Source of the DNA: Chloroflexi bacterium GWB2_49_20
GTDB lineage: Bacteria > Chloroflexota > Anaerolineae > Anaerolineales > Villigracilaceae
Length of the DNA stretch: 64,000 nt
Direction: 5' to 3'
Assembly: GCA_001796335.1 (NCBI GenBank)
Contig: MGMF01000021.1
Span: forward strand, 248,001-312,000
The first letter of the stretch is position 1. Every line of letters starts with the position of its first letter. The translations under genes and the position numbers were made by a program. Below, one piece after another: positions 54,326-63,291 of this stretch. The notes beneath the pieces are model-generated. The model did no database searches, was not told the DNA's origin, and saw only the letters and a list, made by a program, of their open reading frames with translations.

Positions 54326-55987
54326 TTACCACCCGCTGGCTTCAAAGATGTCAGAAAGAAAAAGCAGCTTTTCTTGTTCCGTCATCGGGCGCGGGCGGGA
54401 ATAATCCTCCAGCATGGCAGTTAATAATTCAGTATTAATATATTTGCCATTATAAAACACATGCCGGTCAATAAACTCCCGGCGGGTTCCGGTTCCAACC
54501 CCGGGATAATCCATTTGATCGAAAAACAGGTTTCCCAACCCATAATGGATAAAACTTCCATTATGGAATTCCATGGTCATTGGAAGATGCGCCTGGCTCC
54601 CGCTTACGATCACAGCCCCGGCATCGGCCATCTTCTGAAAATCTGCCTTTTGCGCCGGACCTGGCCAGACACTATAGCCTTCATAATATTGAAAAGTTGC
54701 TATCGGTAAATATCCTTCTGCCCGAAGTCGCGCCAACTCTGTTTTCATCCAGTCCCAGTCACAAGGCGCCGCACCAGGTTCCGTCTCGGTTGCCCATGCA
54801 AAATCTGGTCCGGCTGGATTACAGCCAATGAAAGCCAATTTGGTGCCATTGTGTTCCAGGGTGATGGGTTTGCGCGCATCCTCCAGGTTGGCTCCTCCTC
54901 CAAAATAAGGCCAGCGACGCTGATTATACATATCCAGCGTGAAGAGGGTTGCTGCGGAGCCCCAATCCTGGAAGTGATTGCCTGTCAATTCGATAATATC
55001 TGTGCCAATATACTCCAATAATTCAATATTTAATGGATTGCTGCAAAAGAACAAGGTGTAATTAACCAGCTCGGGATACGGGCATTCAGGCGCAAAAGGA
55101 ATTTCATTGCTGATATGTGTGATATCCGCATTTACCAACCAATCGCGCATCGCTTCCCCCGGATAGGTGCGACCTTTGATCTCCATTTTATACGCCGTTG
55201 CTCTTACCAGGGCAGTCACCCCGGTCATAACTAGCGTGGTCATCTTTTCCGGGTCGCGATTGGACCCAGGAAGAGCAACACCAAGCTGTTGAGCCGCTTC
55301 TCCCACCAAACTGAAATTGATCTTCAAGGGATAAGTTTCCGGGTTAAAATCCTTACGGATGGGTGATTGCCCATCTACGCTGAGAACCTTCCAACGTGGC
55401 TCGATTTGTTCAAAGGGAATAATGGCAAAAGAGGGTTGTACATTCCAGGCTGAATCCAAAATATCCTCTGGTTGAGCAATGCGCACATTGAAGGTTGGAT
55501 TGGGTTTCCCCCAAAGTGTAGTCAATGCAGCCAGGGTGGATCCATCCATCCACACCGGAGAATCCGACAGCGAACTGGTTGCATCTCCCATCCATGCCAG
55601 GGTCAGGTCTTCCATTTTGATCCCATCCTGCAGGGAAGGAAAAGGTGCAACAAAAGCATATATCCATGTTGACCTTCCCACGTTCAGCCCACCCATATTT
55701 TTGTCTGCATCAAGCCGTATGGTGGCCAGTTCGGGGCTGGCTGCAATTGAAATACCGCTTGAAATTGCAGACTGAGCCAATTCGGATGGAACTGCAGGAG
55801 ATATCCACAAAATTTGTAATTGAACCGGCAAATTTGTGGGCACTAAGGTTCGTGTCGATTCTGCTGCTTGTGTTGAAGTGCTGTCAGGATTTTCGTTTTC
55901 ATTATGGATAGATCGTTTTATCTCTCCATTAAAAGAACAGCCTGTTAAAAATAGAATTCCAAGACAGAAAAGGATGTCTTTTTTCAT
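54326..55987 (-). CDS. CapA-family lipoprotein with an N-terminal extension
   Basis: 553 aa. Lipobox LTGC (Cys about residue 17). Residues about 40-270 form an extra domain resembling a periplasmic binding fold; about 270-535 is CapA/PgsA-like metallophosphoesterase with NEIPFAPECP, ELTGNHFQDWGS, TFQYYEGYS, SGSQAHLPM and HYGLGNLFF. CapA proteins act in poly-glutamate capsule metabolism or related hydrolysis; the substrate here is unknown. The next gene on the strand (the mutase) ends 18 bases upstream. Confidence 0.85.
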   Translation of the reverse strand: MKKDILFCLGILFLTGCSFNGEIKRSIHNENENPDSTSTQAAESTRTLVPTNLPVQLQILWISPAVPSELAQSAISSGISIAASPELATIRLDADKNMGGLNVGRSTWIYAFVAPFPSLQDGIKMEDLTLAWMGDATSSLSDSPVWMDGSTLAALTTLWGKPNPTFNVRIAQPEDILDSAWNVQPSFAIIPFEQIEPRWKVLSVDGQSPIRKDFNPETYPLKINFSLVGEAAQQLGVALPGSNRDPEKMTTLVMTGVTALVRATAYKMEIKGRTYPGEAMRDWLVNADITHISNEIPFAPECPYPELVNYTLFFCSNPLNIELLEYIGTDIIELTGNHFQDWGSAATLFTLDMYNQRRWPYFGGGANLEDARKPITLEHNGTKLAFIGCNPAGPDFAWATETEPGAAPCDWDWMKTELARLRAEGYLPIATFQYYEGYSVWPGPAQKADFQKMADAGAVIVSGSQAHLPMTMEFHNGSFIHYGLGNLFFDQMDYPGVGTGTRREFIDRHVFYNGKYINTELLTAMLEDYSRPRPMTEQEKLLFLSDIFEASGW

Positions 55988-58152: not shown

Positions 58153-58545
58153 ATGAAACCAATCACCTGGATGTATGTTGGAGCGGTTGTATTGCTGCTT
58201 ATGGCTGCTTGTGGCCTGGGCCTGGGAGGCTTTATTTATCTCGGTTCATTAGGCGGAGCCAATATTGGATCTCTCCACATTCTTTTGGCAGGTCTTGGAA
58301 TTCTTGCTGGCATTGCAGGTATAATTTTGATCTTCGCAGCTGTGCGTAAAACCAAAGCTGACACCGCTCAGAATGTCACCCTCAAAGTGGACCTGCCCGC
58401 GAATGTGAACGTTGAGAAGATGAAATGTCAATCCTGTGGCGGCGTCCTTACTTCGGATGATATCAAGGTGGTTAACGGGGCGCCCATGGTTACATGCCCA
58501 TTCTGTAATACTGTTTATCAATTAACCGAAGAACCCAAGTGGTGA
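58153..58545 (+). CDS. Two-helix membrane protein with C-terminal zinc ribbon
   Basis: 130 aa. Two hydrophobic helices (about residues 7-33 and 40-66), then a cytoplasmic zinc ribbon with MKCQSCGG and VTCPFCNTVY (about residues 96-124). I do not recognise a named family. CGGAGG precedes the ATG. First gene of the locus, 34 bases before the DUF2207-like gene, so the two are surely cotranscribed; it may help to hold or load the partner protein or its metal. Confidence 0.75.
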   Translation: MKPITWMYVGAVVLLLMAACGLGLGGFIYLGSLGGANIGSLHILLAGLGILAGIAGIILIFAAVRKTKADTAQNVTLKVDLPANVNVEKMKCQSCGGVLTSDDIKVVNGAPMVTCPFCNTVYQLTEEPKW

Positions 58546-58579: not shown

Positions 58580-60238
58580 ATGAAACGACGTATCCTGACA
58601 CTTGTATTAACCCTCCTGCTGGTCTTCAGCATAACGACCCATGCCGCAGCACAAAACTACTCCTTTGTGTTGTCCAATGAAGTCGTGCATGTGTATTGGA
58701 ACAGCGATGGAACAGTCAGCCTGGATTATTTATTGACTTTCCAAAATGACATCGGAGCACATGTCATCGATTTTATCGATCTCGGCCTGCCCAATGGAAA
58801 TTATGACTTTAACAGCATCACTGCAGATGTGGGGGGTAATTCCCTGAGTATCTCAAGCGATTTCCAGGGAGATGGTCCTGACGGCGTGGCGATCGATATG
58901 GGGTCATACGCCATCCAACCCGGTCAGAGCGGAAGTGTACACGTAGTCGTTGGGAGTATCACCAATATGTTCTTCCCGGATACCGCTGATCAAAACCTGA
59001 CCAGCGGCGAGTTTGCTCCTGCATACTGGACGACTGCGCACGGGAATACCAACCTAATGATCACCTTCCACCTGCCGGTGGGTGTAAAACCCGAGGAACC
59101 ACGCTACCATACACCCGCAGGCAGCTGGCCGGGAGATGCCGCTCCCACAGCCACGATTGACGATCAGGGTCGTATCAATTACACCTGGCAATCAACTTTA
59201 GCTAATGGCTATACGCAATATACCTTTGGCTTATCTGTCCCGCGCTCCTACATTCCTGCCGGTGCAATTTACAAACCATCCATCTGGGAAACGATCGGCA
59301 TCAGTTTTGATACTCTTTTTACCTGGGGAATATGCGGGTGTTTTATCCTGTTATTTTTTGGATTACCCATCCTGGGTGTGATCAATGAACGCAAGCGCAA
59401 GATGAAATATCTGCCCCCCAAGATCTCCATCGAAGGTCATGGCATCAAGCGCGGTCTGACCGCAGTCGAAGCTGCCATACTGATGGAGCAGTCCCTGGAC
59501 AAAGTTATGACCATGATCCTGTTCGGTGTGATCAAAAAAGGCGCAGCTACAGTCGTCACCCGGGATCCTCTCAAGCTGACACTTATACAACCCCAACCCG
59601 AGGGTTTAAATGAATACGAAAAGGATTTCCTGCTGGCTTTCAGCGATCCGAAAATATTACCTAAAAAAGGTCTTCAGGAAATGACCGTCAAAATGATCAA
59701 GGCAGTTGGGGATAAGATGAAAGGCTTCAGCGGCAAGGAAAGCATCGTTTATTACAAAAGCATCATGGAACGCGCCTGGCAACAGATCGAATCGGCCGAA
59801 ACCCCTGAAGTTAAAAGCGATATGTACGAGGAATCTCTCGAATGGACCATGCTGGACAAGAATTATGATGAGCGCACCAGGCAGACCTTCACCGGACCGA
59901 TCTTTGTACCCATGTGGTGGGGGCATTATGATCCAACTTACAGTTCCTCCTCCAGTCTTCCAAAAGCTACCGGAGGTGTGCAAATACCGTCCTTCCCATC
60001 CGGTCGTTCAACCACCAGTGTGCCGGGTTCAGCCTTTGCAGCTTCCGTCATCACCGGAGTACAAAATTTCTCCAGCAAGGTGATTGGCGATGTGAACACC
60101 TTTACTTCAGGTGTCACCAAAACCACCAATCCGGTACCAAAATCCAGCGGATCATTTAAAAGCGGTGGCGGAGGTGGTCATAGTTGCGCGTGTGCCTGTG
60201 CCGGTTGTGCCTGCGCATGTGCTGGTGGCGGCAGGTAA
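58580..60238 (+). CDS. DUF2207-like membrane protein with Cys-Ala repeat tail
   Basis: 552 aa. Signal peptide (residues 1-24), extracytoplasmic beta domain (about 25-235), one membrane helix (about 246-269) followed by the basic NERKRKMK, so the rest is cytoplasmic. Residues 280-470 form a DUF2207-type cytoplasmic domain, then a Ser/Thr/Gly-rich linker and a tail HSCACACAGCACACAGGGR. The tail has six Cys in two (CA)3 runs separated by Gly, unlike anything else in the protein. A PqqD-like/radical SAM gene follows 53 bases later. I infer the tail is its substrate. GAGGAG precedes the ATG. Confidence 0.8.
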   Translation: MKRRILTLVLTLLLVFSITTHAAAQNYSFVLSNEVVHVYWNSDGTVSLDYLLTFQNDIGAHVIDFIDLGLPNGNYDFNSITADVGGNSLSISSDFQGDGPDGVAIDMGSYAIQPGQSGSVHVVVGSITNMFFPDTADQNLTSGEFAPAYWTTAHGNTNLMITFHLPVGVKPEEPRYHTPAGSWPGDAAPTATIDDQGRINYTWQSTLANGYTQYTFGLSVPRSYIPAGAIYKPSIWETIGISFDTLFTWGICGCFILLFFGLPILGVINERKRKMKYLPPKISIEGHGIKRGLTAVEAAILMEQSLDKVMTMILFGVIKKGAATVVTRDPLKLTLIQPQPEGLNEYEKDFLLAFSDPKILPKKGLQEMTVKMIKAVGDKMKGFSGKESIVYYKSIMERAWQQIESAETPEVKSDMYEESLEWTMLDKNYDERTRQTFTGPIFVPMWWGHYDPTYSSSSSLPKATGGVQIPSFPSGRSTTSVPGSAFAASVITGVQNFSSKVIGDVNTFTSGVTKTTNPVPKSSGSFKSGGGGGHSCACACAGCACACAGGGR

Positions 60239-60291: not shown

Positions 60292-61683
60292 ATGAATTTC
60301 CTGGATAATTTCCGCAAGCCCAAATTGCCACCAAAAAGGCTGCAAACTACCGGCGTGCACCATTATCTGTTTGAAAAAGATGCTGAGAAATCACGCCTGC
60401 ACCTTCGCCTGGATGAAGATGGTCACGGTACATTGATCGTCAATGCCAGCCGCATCCTCCATCTCAATCCCACCGCAGCCTGGATGGCATACCTGTTCCT
60501 GGAAAAAACTCCATCTGCGGATGCGGTGCAACTTATTAAAAAGCAGTTCCGCGTATCCACCAGGCAGGCTAGCCAGGATTACCAGACCCTGCAGGCGCAA
60601 CTTGACGAGCTGATCCGTCCGGATGGCGCCTGTCCGATCCATGAGATGGACCTGGACACGCTCGCACCCTTTAGCGCTCGCCCCAGCGCGCCTTATCGCA
60701 TGGACCTGGCGCTTACTTATCGCTGCAATAATGACTGTGCGCACTGCTACAACCTTGAACATCCCGGCGCAGCCACTTCATCGAATGGAAAAATGGAGTT
60801 GGGAACCCGGGAGTGGAAGCAGGTGCTGGACAAGCTCTGGGACTTGGGAATCCCGCACATTATCTTCACCGGCGGTGAACCCACCCTGCGTAATGACCTG
60901 CCCGAACTGATCGCCCATGCAGAATCAATTGGACAGATCACAGGCTTGAACACCAATGCCCGCCGGCTTGCAGATCCAAGTTTCGTCAACGCTTTGGTAC
61001 AGGCCGGGCTGGACCATGTTCAGATCACCCTCGAATCCAACGAGTCTGCTGTTCACGATCAGATGGTACGTTCCAAAGGCGCTTTCCAGCAAACTGTAAA
61101 AGGAATTCAAAACGTCCTGGATACCCGCCTGTATGTCATGACCAATACCACCATGCTGCAGGATAATGTAAAGACCATCCCGGGAACTTTGGACTTCCTG
61201 GCAGTTCTGGGAGTTCCAACGGTGGGGTTGAATGCCTTGATCCATTCCGGTCGGGGAGCTTCGGTTGGCAGTGGTTTGCCGGAAAAGGATCTGCATCCCC
61301 TGCTGGAAATTGCCACCCAAAAAACACAACAGCATGACCAACGCCTGATCTGGTACACCCCCACCCAGTACTGCCATTTTGACCCCATGCAAATGGACCT
61401 GGGCATCAAGGGCTGTACGGCAGCGTTGTACAACATGTGCATCGAACCGGATGGAGGCGTTTTACCCTGCCAGTCTTACTACCAGCCGTTGGGAAACATT
61501 CTCAACGATCCCTGGGATTCCATTTGGAACCATGATCTGGCTGTCCGCTTGCGCGAGCGCCAGGGATTGCCCGAAAAATGTACCGGCTGCGGTTTGCTGT
61601 CGGAGTGCGGTGGGGGTTGTCCTCTCCAATTTGAGACAACTGAGATCCCTTCCCACATCAGTGTGCCTGTGATCCAATTATGA
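60292..61683 (+). CDS. PqqD-like + radical SAM/SPASM maturase
   Basis: 463 aa from the ATG at 60292; the open frame to 60184 lies within the upstream gene's tail codons. Residues about 15-110: PqqD-like wing (LHLRLDEDGHGTLIVNAS, LHLNPTAAWMAYL), a peptide-recognition module in other maturases. Then radical SAM CxxxCxxC in YRCNNDCAHCYN (Cys145, 149, 152) and TGGEP, and a C-terminal SPASM domain with CTAALYNMCIEPDGGVLPC and CTGCGLLSECGGGC for auxiliary FeS clusters. This is the layout of sactipeptide/ranthipeptide and PqqE-type enzymes. Likely acts on the Cys-Ala tail of the preceding protein. Confidence 0.88.
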   Translation: MNFLDNFRKPKLPPKRLQTTGVHHYLFEKDAEKSRLHLRLDEDGHGTLIVNASRILHLNPTAAWMAYLFLEKTPSADAVQLIKKQFRVSTRQASQDYQTLQAQLDELIRPDGACPIHEMDLDTLAPFSARPSAPYRMDLALTYRCNNDCAHCYNLEHPGAATSSNGKMELGTREWKQVLDKLWDLGIPHIIFTGGEPTLRNDLPELIAHAESIGQITGLNTNARRLADPSFVNALVQAGLDHVQITLESNESAVHDQMVRSKGAFQQTVKGIQNVLDTRLYVMTNTTMLQDNVKTIPGTLDFLAVLGVPTVGLNALIHSGRGASVGSGLPEKDLHPLLEIATQKTQQHDQRLIWYTPTQYCHFDPMQMDLGIKGCTAALYNMCIEPDGGVLPCQSYYQPLGNILNDPWDSIWNHDLAVRLRERQGLPEKCTGCGLLSECGGGCPLQFETTEIPSHISVPVIQL

Positions 61684-61732: not shown

Positions 61733-62080
61733 ATGAAATATGAAGAAAATGCCTGGGTGAAGAGTTTCCCCGGCGCCATCACAGTCAGCGATACCCAGGG
61801 TGTCATTCTTGAGATGAACGATCAATCTGTCAAAGCTTTTGAAGAAGACGGTGGCCGGGAACTTATCGGAAAAAATATGCTCGAATGTCATCCCGGTCCC
61901 GCCCGCCTCAAGGTGGAAAAAATGATGCAAAAAAAGGAAACCAATGTTTACACCATCGAAAAGAAAGGCAAGAAAAAGATCATTTACCAGACTCCCTGGT
62001 ACAACGATGGCGTATACGCCGGATTTATTGAACTGGCACTTGAAATACCCTTCGAAATGGAACATTTTTTGCGTGATTAG
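61733..62080 (+). CDS. Single PAS domain protein
   Basis: 115 aa, only a PAS fold: FPGAITVSDTQGVILEMNDQS, then ELIGKNMLECHPGPARLKVEKMM and QTPWYNDGVYAGFIELALEI. The CHPGPAR-type segment occurs in PAS modules of DUF438 proteins. It could sense redox, oxygen or a small ligand, or dimerise with an enzyme. GGAGAA precedes the ATG. Lies between the two radical-SAM-type genes. Confidence 0.8.
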   Translation: MKYEENAWVKSFPGAITVSDTQGVILEMNDQSVKAFEEDGGRELIGKNMLECHPGPARLKVEKMMQKKETNVYTIEKKGKKKIIYQTPWYNDGVYAGFIELALEIPFEMEHFLRD

Positions 62081-62145: not shown

Positions 62146-63291
62146 ATGACATCCGTGATCGACTTTATTCGTGAGCGTTTCACCCAAACAAAACCACTGC
62201 CTGCCGGCTCGCATATTTTCCAATCTGCCCCGGATGAGCCTCCTTACCGGCTGCACTTGCGCATGCAGGCGGATGGCTCCGGCATGCTCATCGTCAACGC
62301 CGCCACGGTACTTCACCTCAACCCGACTGCCACCGAGTATGCCTATCACATGATGAAAGGCGCCAACCCGGAGGATGCCGCCCGGCAGGTGGCCTCCCGC
62401 TACAACATCAACCGATCGACAGCACAGCAGGATTTTGTGGAATTCCGTGACCGCATTCAGACCCTGATCCATACTCCCGATCTCGATCCGGTCACCTATC
62501 TCGATTTTCAGCGGGTTTCTCCACACTCACAGGTGCTTTCCGCGCCTCTGCGTCTCGATTGCGCCCTAACCTACCTGCTGCCTGCAGACGCCGAACCATC
62601 TGCCGCTCCAACCAAACGGGTGGAACGCGAACTGAACGCGGACGAGTGGAAAACCATCCTGGATAAAGCCTGGCAGGCTGGCATCCCCCATATTACGCTG
62701 ACGGGGGGCGAGCCGACCTTGCGGGCAGACTTGCCCGAGATCATTGCCCATGCCGAGAAGAACGGACAGGTGTGCGGTTTGCTGAGTGATGGTCTGAAAC
62801 TGGCTGATAAGGAATACCTGGAGACTCTCCTGCAAACGGGTCTGGATCACCTGCTATTCATTCTACAGCCTGAAAATAGTGCTTCCTGGAAAGCCCTCGA
62901 AACCATTCTGCCAGAGGACCTTTTCACAACGGTTCATCTCACCATCACCACCAGAAACGCCACACAGGCTGCCGAAACCCTGGAGAAACTGGCAAAGCTG
63001 GGGGTCACCAGCCTGTCTCTGAGCGTGGCAGATCCATCCTTGAAAGAAACGCTCGATAGTCTGCGGAATCTGGCCGCCAAACTGGAACTGACACTTCGCT
63101 GGGATCTACCGGTACCCTATTCCCTGGAAAACCCGGTTGCAATTGAAACCCGAGAGGAAAATCTCCCGGCAGGTGCTGGCAAAGCTTGGTTGTATGTCGA
63201 GCCAGACGGGGATGTACTCCCCGCGCAGGGCATGGCTGATCAAATCCTGGGCAATTTCCTGAAAAATAAATTTGAAGAGATCTACCACTGA
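62146..63291 (+). CDS. PqqD-like/radical-SAM paralogue without FeS cysteines
   Basis: 381 aa, clearly paralogous to the gene at 60292: LHLRMQADGSGMLIVNAATVLHLNPTA matches its PqqD wing, and HITLTGGEPTLRADLPEIIAHAEK matches its core. Where the paralogue has YRCNNDCAHC, this protein has TYLLPADAE (residues 142-150), so CxxxCxxC is gone. The SPASM remnant is EPDGDVLPA with Ala for Cys. It keeps TGGEP and a complete frame, so it is probably used as a binding partner, not dead. GGAAAGGAG precedes the ATG. Confidence 0.85.
   Translation: MTSVIDFIRERFTQTKPLPAGSHIFQSAPDEPPYRLHLRMQADGSGMLIVNAATVLHLNPTATEYAYHMMKGANPEDAARQVASRYNINRSTAQQDFVEFRDRIQTLIHTPDLDPVTYLDFQRVSPHSQVLSAPLRLDCALTYLLPADAEPSAAPTKRVERELNADEWKTILDKAWQAGIPHITLTGGEPTLRADLPEIIAHAEKNGQVCGLLSDGLKLADKEYLETLLQTGLDHLLFILQPENSASWKALETILPEDLFTTVHLTITTRNATQAAETLEKLAKLGVTSLSLSVADPSLKETLDSLRNLAAKLELTLRWDLPVPYSLENPVAIETREENLPAGAGKAWLYVEPDGDVLPAQGMADQILGNFLKNKFEEIYH

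Follow-up and report, generated by a model that had tools for sequence, protein, structure and literature searches.

Cys-Ala tail of a Chloroflexota membrane protein as proposed substrate of an adjoining radical SAM/SPASM enzyme

What purpose does a membrane protein have for a C-terminus of alternating cysteine and alanine? The question is raised by a locus of Chloroflexi bacterium GWB2_49_20 (Anaerolineae; Anaerolineales; Villigracilaceae), situated in a window of 64,000 nucleotides (assembly GCA_001796335.1, contig MGMF01000021.1, positions 248,001 to 312,000 of the forward strand). All coordinates below are those of the window, and the source genome comprises 3.37 Mb in 28 contigs. An open reading frame (ORF, 58580-60238, + strand) encodes protein A, which ends in GGGGGHSCACACAGCACACAGGGR; a longer C-terminal stretch reads HSCACACAGCACACAGGGR. 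A gene for a radical S-adenosylmethionine (SAM)/SPASM enzyme, B, lies downstream. The tail is probably a substrate of B, recognized via a conserved helix module and modified on a protein that is retained. A probability of roughly three in four is assigned to this reading. The features concerned are:

58580..60238, + strand: gene A, membrane protein with Cys tail, 552 aa (ORF; signal peptide, ectodomain, one transmembrane helix, cytosolic domain, C-terminal module, tail)
60185..60235, + strand: Cys-Ala tail CACACAGCACACAGGGR, proposed modification site (A residues 536-552, GGGR included)
60292..61683, + strand: gene B, radical SAM/SPASM enzyme with an N-terminal PqqD-like domain of the RRE type (recognition element of ribosomally synthesized and post-translationally modified peptides, RiPPs), proposed maturase (Pfam, fold)

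The initial annotation had described a tail with two CACACA runs split by Gly and a Gly-rich linker before them, as is present at residues 536-552 of A. The tail start given there, 60178, was one base early: the last 19 codons and the stop codon occupy 60179-60238. Across the whole 3.37 Mb genome, a degenerate Cys-Ala-Cys-Ala-Cys-Ala pattern occurs at two adjacent sites only, both in the tail, and the reversed control gave 0. A chance origin of the tail was ruled out by this count and by the following codon analysis. A protein search confirmed 402 relatives of A, from metagenome-assembled genomes (MAGs) labeled mostly Anaerolineales, Anaerolineae or Chloroflexi, and the best 80 were taken as genome-contig loci. 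CACACAGCACACAGGGR ends A in all 80 of them. With the window included, the 17-residue peptide is identical in 81/81 loci and is encoded by 81 different DNA sequences. Per pair of loci, differences amount to 9.1 of the 17 third codon positions, none of the second positions and 0.49 of the first positions, the last confined to the Arg codon. That 81 DNA sequences yield one peptide indicates selection on the peptide itself, which, judged by its codons, is strong. An alignment of 73 A proteins (window and 72 of the 80 loci, 8 being dropped) has its longest invariant run in the tail, with 17 columns; the next longest has 4. Mean entropy is 0.00 in the tail vs 1.44 in the adjoining linker residues 521-533.

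One of the six search words behind the 80-locus set came from the tail and might favor tailed loci. Therefore, a family-level draw of 100 genomes, searched with the whole protein, was also examined. A was found in 86 of them. Two of these genes end at contig edges and leave the tail unreadable (G021, G061); the remaining 84 C-termini are all Cys-rich (82 canonical, 2 variants). Tail loss in orthologues, named by the initial annotation as contrary evidence, was seen in none of these 84. Its expectation that the Cys number varies as (CA)n was borne out in the first run, which has three units in 17, four in 62 and five in 3 of the canonical tails. The second run is (CA)3 and, together with the GGGR end, nearly fixed among the readable family tails. 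The 14 family genomes without A are spread over 9 genera, and some genomes are incomplete.

The second line of evidence is the association of A with B. B is located downstream of A on the same strand in 80/80 loci (74 full-length copies, 6 incomplete), usually as the next gene; the exception is L063, where B starts 5.5 kb after the A start. In the family draw, A and B are each missing in 14 genomes. The two lists differ only by G026, which has solely a copy of the B relative C (see below), and by G031, in which a contig ends and the 7,205-base contig (L054) shows a B fragment. A class-level draw of 298 genomes was searched for A at E<=1e-5 and for B at E<=1e-40, yielding 70 genomes with A and 77 with B. 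All 70 genomes with A have B; of the 228 others, 221 are without B. Tails were read in 51 of the 70 genomes, and all belong to the three types described below. B occurred without A in 7 of the 77 genomes: G026; G479, with only about 100 bases of contig before B; G606 and G668, with matches starting at contig bases 1 and 100, respectively; G581, where a contig of 3.5 kb shows gene E (see below) and B; G492, with a B match starting at base 405; and G478, from f94, a family in which A and B are unlinked. The f94 B genes (L220 5097-6506, L223 5424-6812, L224 5553-6938) have a similar neighborhood of their own in three genomes, away from A. Upstream lies an ORF of approximately 250-300 aa; the downstream ORFs look methyltransferase-like and thioredoxin-like by eye.

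Three tail types have been found on homologous scaffolds. Type I, (CA)3-5-G-(CA)3-GGGR, occurs in the family and order of the window, in several other families of the class, and in one genome elsewhere. This genome, G109 from another class, encodes an A 39% and a B 48% identical, with the same tail, and gave the only paired pattern matches outside the class in a 400-genome draw from the phylum. Single pattern matches in other genomes were read at five loci (L148, L149, L150, L151, L216) and rejected as chance frames. Type II, mostly (CA)2-3-G-(CA)4-GGGR, was identified at 12 loci of the families f129, f104 and f9, four of them with two adjacent copies. Type III consists of about 55 residues of His-Ser-Ala-Cys repeats (13 loci). 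All three types share mainly Ala-Cys, and no acceptor residue is common to them. In a tree of 68 rows (B and relatives), the type II rows (13) and the type III rows (13) each form one clade (100/100), while the type I rows form a grade; the tree is midpoint-rooted and carries a long-branch warning for the pseudo-enzymes and L176. Tree types were assigned by genome, and the rows L222 and L232 are without a read tail. G714 has two pairs, one of type I and one of type III, with each scaffold adjoining its own enzyme. Downstream of type III enzymes, ORFs of several hundred residues (L234 2427-3245, L237 2583-3734, L232 6690-8012) share a coiled-coil-like look by eye and could be a further component of the type III operon.

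The tail module moves between proteins, as seen in a single case from a MAG with 8% estimated contamination. In G509, an ORF of 1143 aa (L189 978-4406) contains a Ser/Thr protein kinase domain (E-value 2.2e-53) and an AAA_16 domain (E-value 1.6e-25). Its C-terminal end of about 130 residues is related to A from residue 422 (30% identity, E-value 5e-07) and keeps the same tail as well as the helix module, here with TNPPP. About 0.4 kb downstream, a B gene follows. The ORF is without a strong hydrophobic segment, so its tail should be cytosolic.

How could the tail reach the enzyme? Protein A is divided as follows:

58652..59251, + strand: ectodomain (residues 25-224; AlphaFold2 block, predicted local distance difference test, pLDDT, mostly 92-98)
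59306..59392, + strand: transmembrane helix (residues 243-271 in the model; hydropathy peak)
60023..60139, + strand: two-helix module ending TNPxP, proposed recognition segment (residues 482-520)
60140..60184, + strand: variable Gly/Ser-rich linker (residues 521-535)

The AlphaFold2 model of A has a mean pLDDT of 83 and consists of the ectodomain, the transmembrane helix, a helical cytosolic domain, the helices 483-502 and 505-516, and a low-confidence tail (residues 523-552 below 50). The two-helix module shows a mean entropy of 0.96; T516, N517, P518 and P520 are invariant in 73/73 aligned proteins. Net charge is higher after the transmembrane segment than before it, again in 73/73. This positive-inside pattern and the kinase fusion without a strong hydrophobic segment predict a C-terminus, tail included, in the cytosol, on the same side as B. 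The ectodomain fold resembles ribophorin I/OST1 of oligosaccharyltransferase (VIA Z 17.5, 184 aligned, root mean square deviation 2.7). The common fold shows no function, and the fold search addresses the ectodomain, with the cytosolic domain barely tested by it. Comparison of the A sequence with solved structures was uninformative. Window A had no Pfam match at E<=1, PF09972 and PF20990 (DUF2207) included. By profile comparison, A is related to the DUF2207-type protein group. The type I and type III scaffolds can be aligned from residue 3 to residue 429, tail not included (hhalign probability 99.7, E-value 1e-26). The type III homologue of L182 passes PF09972 (30.9 vs a cut-off of 24.4); that of L188 gave no Pfam match at E<=0.1.

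Shortened relatives of A were also observed. L094 encodes a 255-aa protein with the transmembrane part, the cytosolic part and the tail; the ectodomain is missing. Truncated, tailless second copies, comprising ectodomain and transmembrane segment, lie upstream of A in L063 (4136-5035), L065 (2579-3427) and L023 (3242-4084). In G051, a short tailless relative of the cytosolic domain adjoins an E-like gene (L190 2797-3510 and 3525-3941). This pair is located away from the main locus of that genome, and a B match was absent from the 7 kb examined.

Enzyme B has the architecture of a peptide maturase. Its parts are:

60352..60615, + strand: PqqD-like winged-helix recognition domain (residues 21-108; four strands, then three helices; block pLDDT 76-96)
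60724..60747, + strand: CxxxCxxC motif (C145, C149, C152), kept in 74/74 full-length B copies
61414..61620, + strand: SPASM region with invariant C375, C383, C393, C430, C433, C439 and C443 (69 aligned)

The alignment of B (68 of the 80 loci and the window) was pre-filtered for length and CxxxCxxC and cannot test that motif. Window B matches Radical_SAM (PF04055) with 83.6 bits and SPASM (PF13186) with 37.9 bits (cut-off 21.5). The model of B (mean pLDDT 76) comprises a winged-helix domain followed by radical SAM and SPASM parts, and by its modeled fold B carries an RRE/PqqD-like recognition domain. The best fold matches are SuiB (Z 25.8, 367 aligned) and SkfB (Z 25.1, 343 aligned), both across RRE, radical SAM and SPASM; the SuiB alignment begins at B residue 36. 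Lower matches are viperin (Z 23.9), anSME (Z 23.5), PqqE (22.7) and CteB (22.4, radical SAM and SPASM parts). Among solved structures, PqqE and SkfB are closest in sequence.

Three further genes accompany A and B:

58153..58545, + strand: gene E, small membrane protein with a CxxC...CxxC zinc-ribbon-like end, conserved upstream neighbor
61733..62080, + strand: gene D, small PAS-like protein, frequent neighbor (PAS matches below cut-off)
62146..63291, + strand: gene C, PqqD-like domain and degenerate radical SAM domain without CxxxCxxC (Pfam)

The gene order is E-A-B-D-C, all on the + strand, with gaps of 34, 53, 49 and 65 bases (B from the ATG at 60292). The short gaps and the common strand make the five genes look like one operon. 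The initial annotation had taken the tail as a likely substrate of the neighboring maturase and A as the only neighbor of the latter. The substrate proposal is well supported by association (loci, class genomes, clades, fold); the second statement did not hold, since A is the nearest upstream gene but E, D and C adjoin on the same strand. No leader protease or exporter was recognized among the five genes. C was found in 51/51 loci with more than 5.8 kb downstream, in none of them with CxxxCxxC, and is proposed, from its sequence, as a pseudo-enzyme partner. D was found in 30 of these 51 loci, and E was present in 71 of the 74 loci that extend far enough upstream. The zinc-ribbon matches of E in profile searches are weak, all below the cut-offs. 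Elsewhere in the window, the product of 54326-55987 (- strand) weakly matches MslH, a lasso peptide Trp epimerase (39 bits vs a cut-off of 700). We take this protein to be, probably, an ordinary CapA-type relative.

The proposal that B modifies the tail follows from the linkage in 80/80 loci, the co-occurrence in 70/70 class genomes, the enzyme clades matching types II and III, and the RiPP-maturase-like fold. Binding, modification and the order of events are what we infer. A would sit in the membrane with its C-terminus facing the cytosol. The PqqD-like domain of B would bind the helix module of A (residues 482-520, ending TNPxP), and the flexible Gly/Ser linker would let the tail enter the active site of the radical SAM part. 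There, the Cys residues may be modified one after another with the help of the SPASM clusters. The modified product would remain attached to A. In lineages having C, this B relative without the cluster motif probably aids substrate binding.

For the chemistry, S-to-carbon thioethers within the tail are suggested tentatively, by analogy. They are the first guess because the fold neighbors SkfB and CteB make thioethers. The invariant Ala between the Cys residues, kept despite free synonymous change, indicates that Ala matters, either as a thioether acceptor or for the fit into the active site. The tail offers only Ala, Gly or Cys as acceptor residues.

Several observations weigh against the modification of the tail by B, or against thioethers as its product. 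At the type II loci, the gene adjoining the tailed proteins is a pseudo-enzyme in 10 of 12 cases. In 7 type II genomes the active B is encoded on the same contig, further upstream; in 5 it is on another contig. In f94 (G555, G621), A and B are on separate contigs. The Fisher value of 1e-60 for the co-occurrence of A and B is overstated, as it is inflated by shared ancestry within one phylum. Two of the 84 readable family tails deviate: the central Gly is replaced by Ala in G023, and G004 has an insertion, with six Cys kept. The PqqD match of window B reaches 21.7 bits, below the Pfam cut-off of 23.4; that of a type III enzyme is above it, at 30.7. The top curated families for B are tetrapyrrole and PQQ enzymes (NirJ2 with 129.9 bits, PqqE, AhbD), all far under their cut-offs. 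Viperin and anSME, which are not thioether makers, outrank CteB by fold. No thioether on Ala appears in the parts of PMC8172795 and PMC8326336 drawn on here.

Within the proposal that the tail is a substrate, a serious rival to thioethers is the formation of thiooxazole-type heterocycles from Cys, which is considered somewhat unlikely. The product would chelate copper or another metal, or act as a redox ligand, and the pair would be an oxygen-independent counterpart of the MNIO/TIGR04222 pairs. The lack of a common acceptor in the three tail types is in agreement with this chemistry, as is the thio(seleno)oxazole radical SAM/SPASM enzyme SbtM, which makes a thiooxazole from Cys (PMC11002830, in part). 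Enzymes of the MNIO superfamily make thiooxazoles on bufferins, and some TIGR04222 membrane proteins carry C-terminal Cys/Gly/Ser-rich regions beside MNIO (DUF692) enzymes (PMC12452194, in part). The scaffold of A is related to TIGR04222/DUF2207, and MNIO genes (PF05114) occur in just 2 of the 100 family genomes, G000 not being one of them. Against it stand the scores of B: that of L147 reaches 62 bits vs the SbtM cut-off of 350, SbtM is outside the 25 best families listed for window B, and the best structural matches are SuiB and SkfB. Moreover, TIGR04222 tails are predicted to be periplasmic, whereas that of A is predicted to be cytosolic; more than one quarter of TIGR04222 proteins are without such Cys, and one third of the genomes having them are without MNIO genes (PMC12452194, in part). 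The heterocycle absorbs near 305 nm (PMC12668002, in part).

A metallothionein-like ligand for metal or Fe-S without covalent change is improbable. B would then act elsewhere, or only load or protect the thiols; the initial annotation's alternative was of this kind. Six to ten Cys at CxC spacing on a flexible cytosolic tail fit a metal ligand, as do the many His of the type III repeats and the zinc-ribbon-like end of E with its weak matches. However, such a ligand would hardly need Ala at six positions in 81/81 loci, an exact GGGR end, or separate enzyme clades for types II and III. It also gives no reason for the near-perfect link to a RiPP-maturase-like enzyme. Still less probable is a docking or regulatory element bound unchanged by B and C, e.g. 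a redox-sensing thiol tail read by the pseudo-enzymes. Pseudo-enzymes with PqqD-like domains are present in the loci, and D is PAS-like, if below cut-offs. Binding alone, however, would not require B to keep CxxxCxxC in 74/74 copies and the seven SPASM-region Cys in 69/69. A functionless low-complexity or slippage product, suggested by a short two-residue repeat with a first run of 3 to 5 units, is contradicted by the 81 DNA sequences for one peptide, by the nearly fixed second run and GGGR end, and by the other Cys tails that replace this one on homologous scaffolds.

Modification of the retained tail by B thus remains the preferred reading, and the question arises which described systems it resembles. 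TIGR04222/MNIO is the closest analogue, with a remote scaffold relation. Both systems combine a full-length membrane protein, a flexible Gly/Ser-rich C-terminus with Cys, and an adjoining gene for a peptide-modifying metalloenzyme. In contrast, A has a radical SAM/SPASM partner, a tail predicted to be cytosolic, and a near-invariant exact peptide. One type III protein scores 38-40 bits with TIGR04222, under the cut-off of 43, and none of six genomes searched has a match above it. At E<=0.001 no match was obtained in the window genome, and window A shows none. Another protein, G017:C1:20424-20915 (- strand), located away from A, has a sub-threshold TIGR04222 match of 28 bits. The Anaerolineae are largely anaerobic, which would favor radical SAM over oxygen-dependent MNIO chemistry.

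SuiB is the best structural match of B over all three domains, with 18% identity; the A tail is without Lys or Trp. SuiB is the streptide maturase and forms a carbon-carbon crosslink between Lys and Trp. The ACGX system (TIGR04340) likewise employs a radical SAM/SPASM enzyme; window B scores 64 bits vs its cut-off of 400, and the proposed substrate here is a membrane protein. The ACGX partner peptide has ACG repeats, which contain Ala-Cys. SbtM shares the radical SAM/SPASM architecture and the action on Cys, and differs by the low score of B with its hidden Markov model and by another substrate type (PMC11002830, in part). The radical SAM enzymes of ranthipeptide and sactipeptide systems have an N-terminal recognition domain and a SPASM or twitch domain, and SkfB and CteB form thioethers (PMC8326336, in part). 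These enzymes (SCIFF/CteB, SkfB, freyrasin PapB) resemble B in these domains, and several Cys are present in their substrates. Here, in contrast, the substrate would be the end of a 552-aa membrane protein or of a 1143-aa kinase ORF, not a short precursor with a cleavable leader. The (CA)n runs are without Asp, Thr or Asn acceptors, and no export or leader-cleavage gene was recognized. A/B is therefore not a member of the ranthipeptide or sactipeptide class as defined. No published report of the A/B pair was found in a literature search, outside of which most subscription papers lie.

What would such a system mean? Most work on radical SAM peptide chemistry has concerned short precursors, which are cleaved and exported. 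In the present case, the partner of a RiPP-type enzyme is the tail of a large membrane protein, and this pairing extends over one order and related families of Chloroflexota. New are the three tail types, the enzyme clades for types II and III, and the kinase-fused tail module. A substrate of about 75 residues is compact enough for testing, and the three types permit comparisons of enzyme specificity by swapping. A broader view, put forward tentatively, is that of a portable tag of helix module and Cys repeat, modified by a dedicated RRE-bearing radical SAM enzyme on full-length cytosol-facing proteins such as membrane sensors and a Ser/Thr kinase. The result would be a permanent RiPP-like metal or redox appendage, for which at least three tail alphabets, (CA)n-G-(CA)3, (CA)n-G-(CA)4 and (HSAC)n, might have arisen on a single scaffold; the system would parallel the MNIO/TIGR04222 pairs without a need for oxygen. 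The modified tail may serve metal handling, redox sensing or a structural role. The findings suggest that Cys-rich tails on TIGR04222-like proteins represent a general theme for which different bacteria use unrelated enzymes: MNIO in some, radical SAM in those described here. Provided that the tail is modified, these Chloroflexota would use RiPP chemistry on ordinary, retained proteins.

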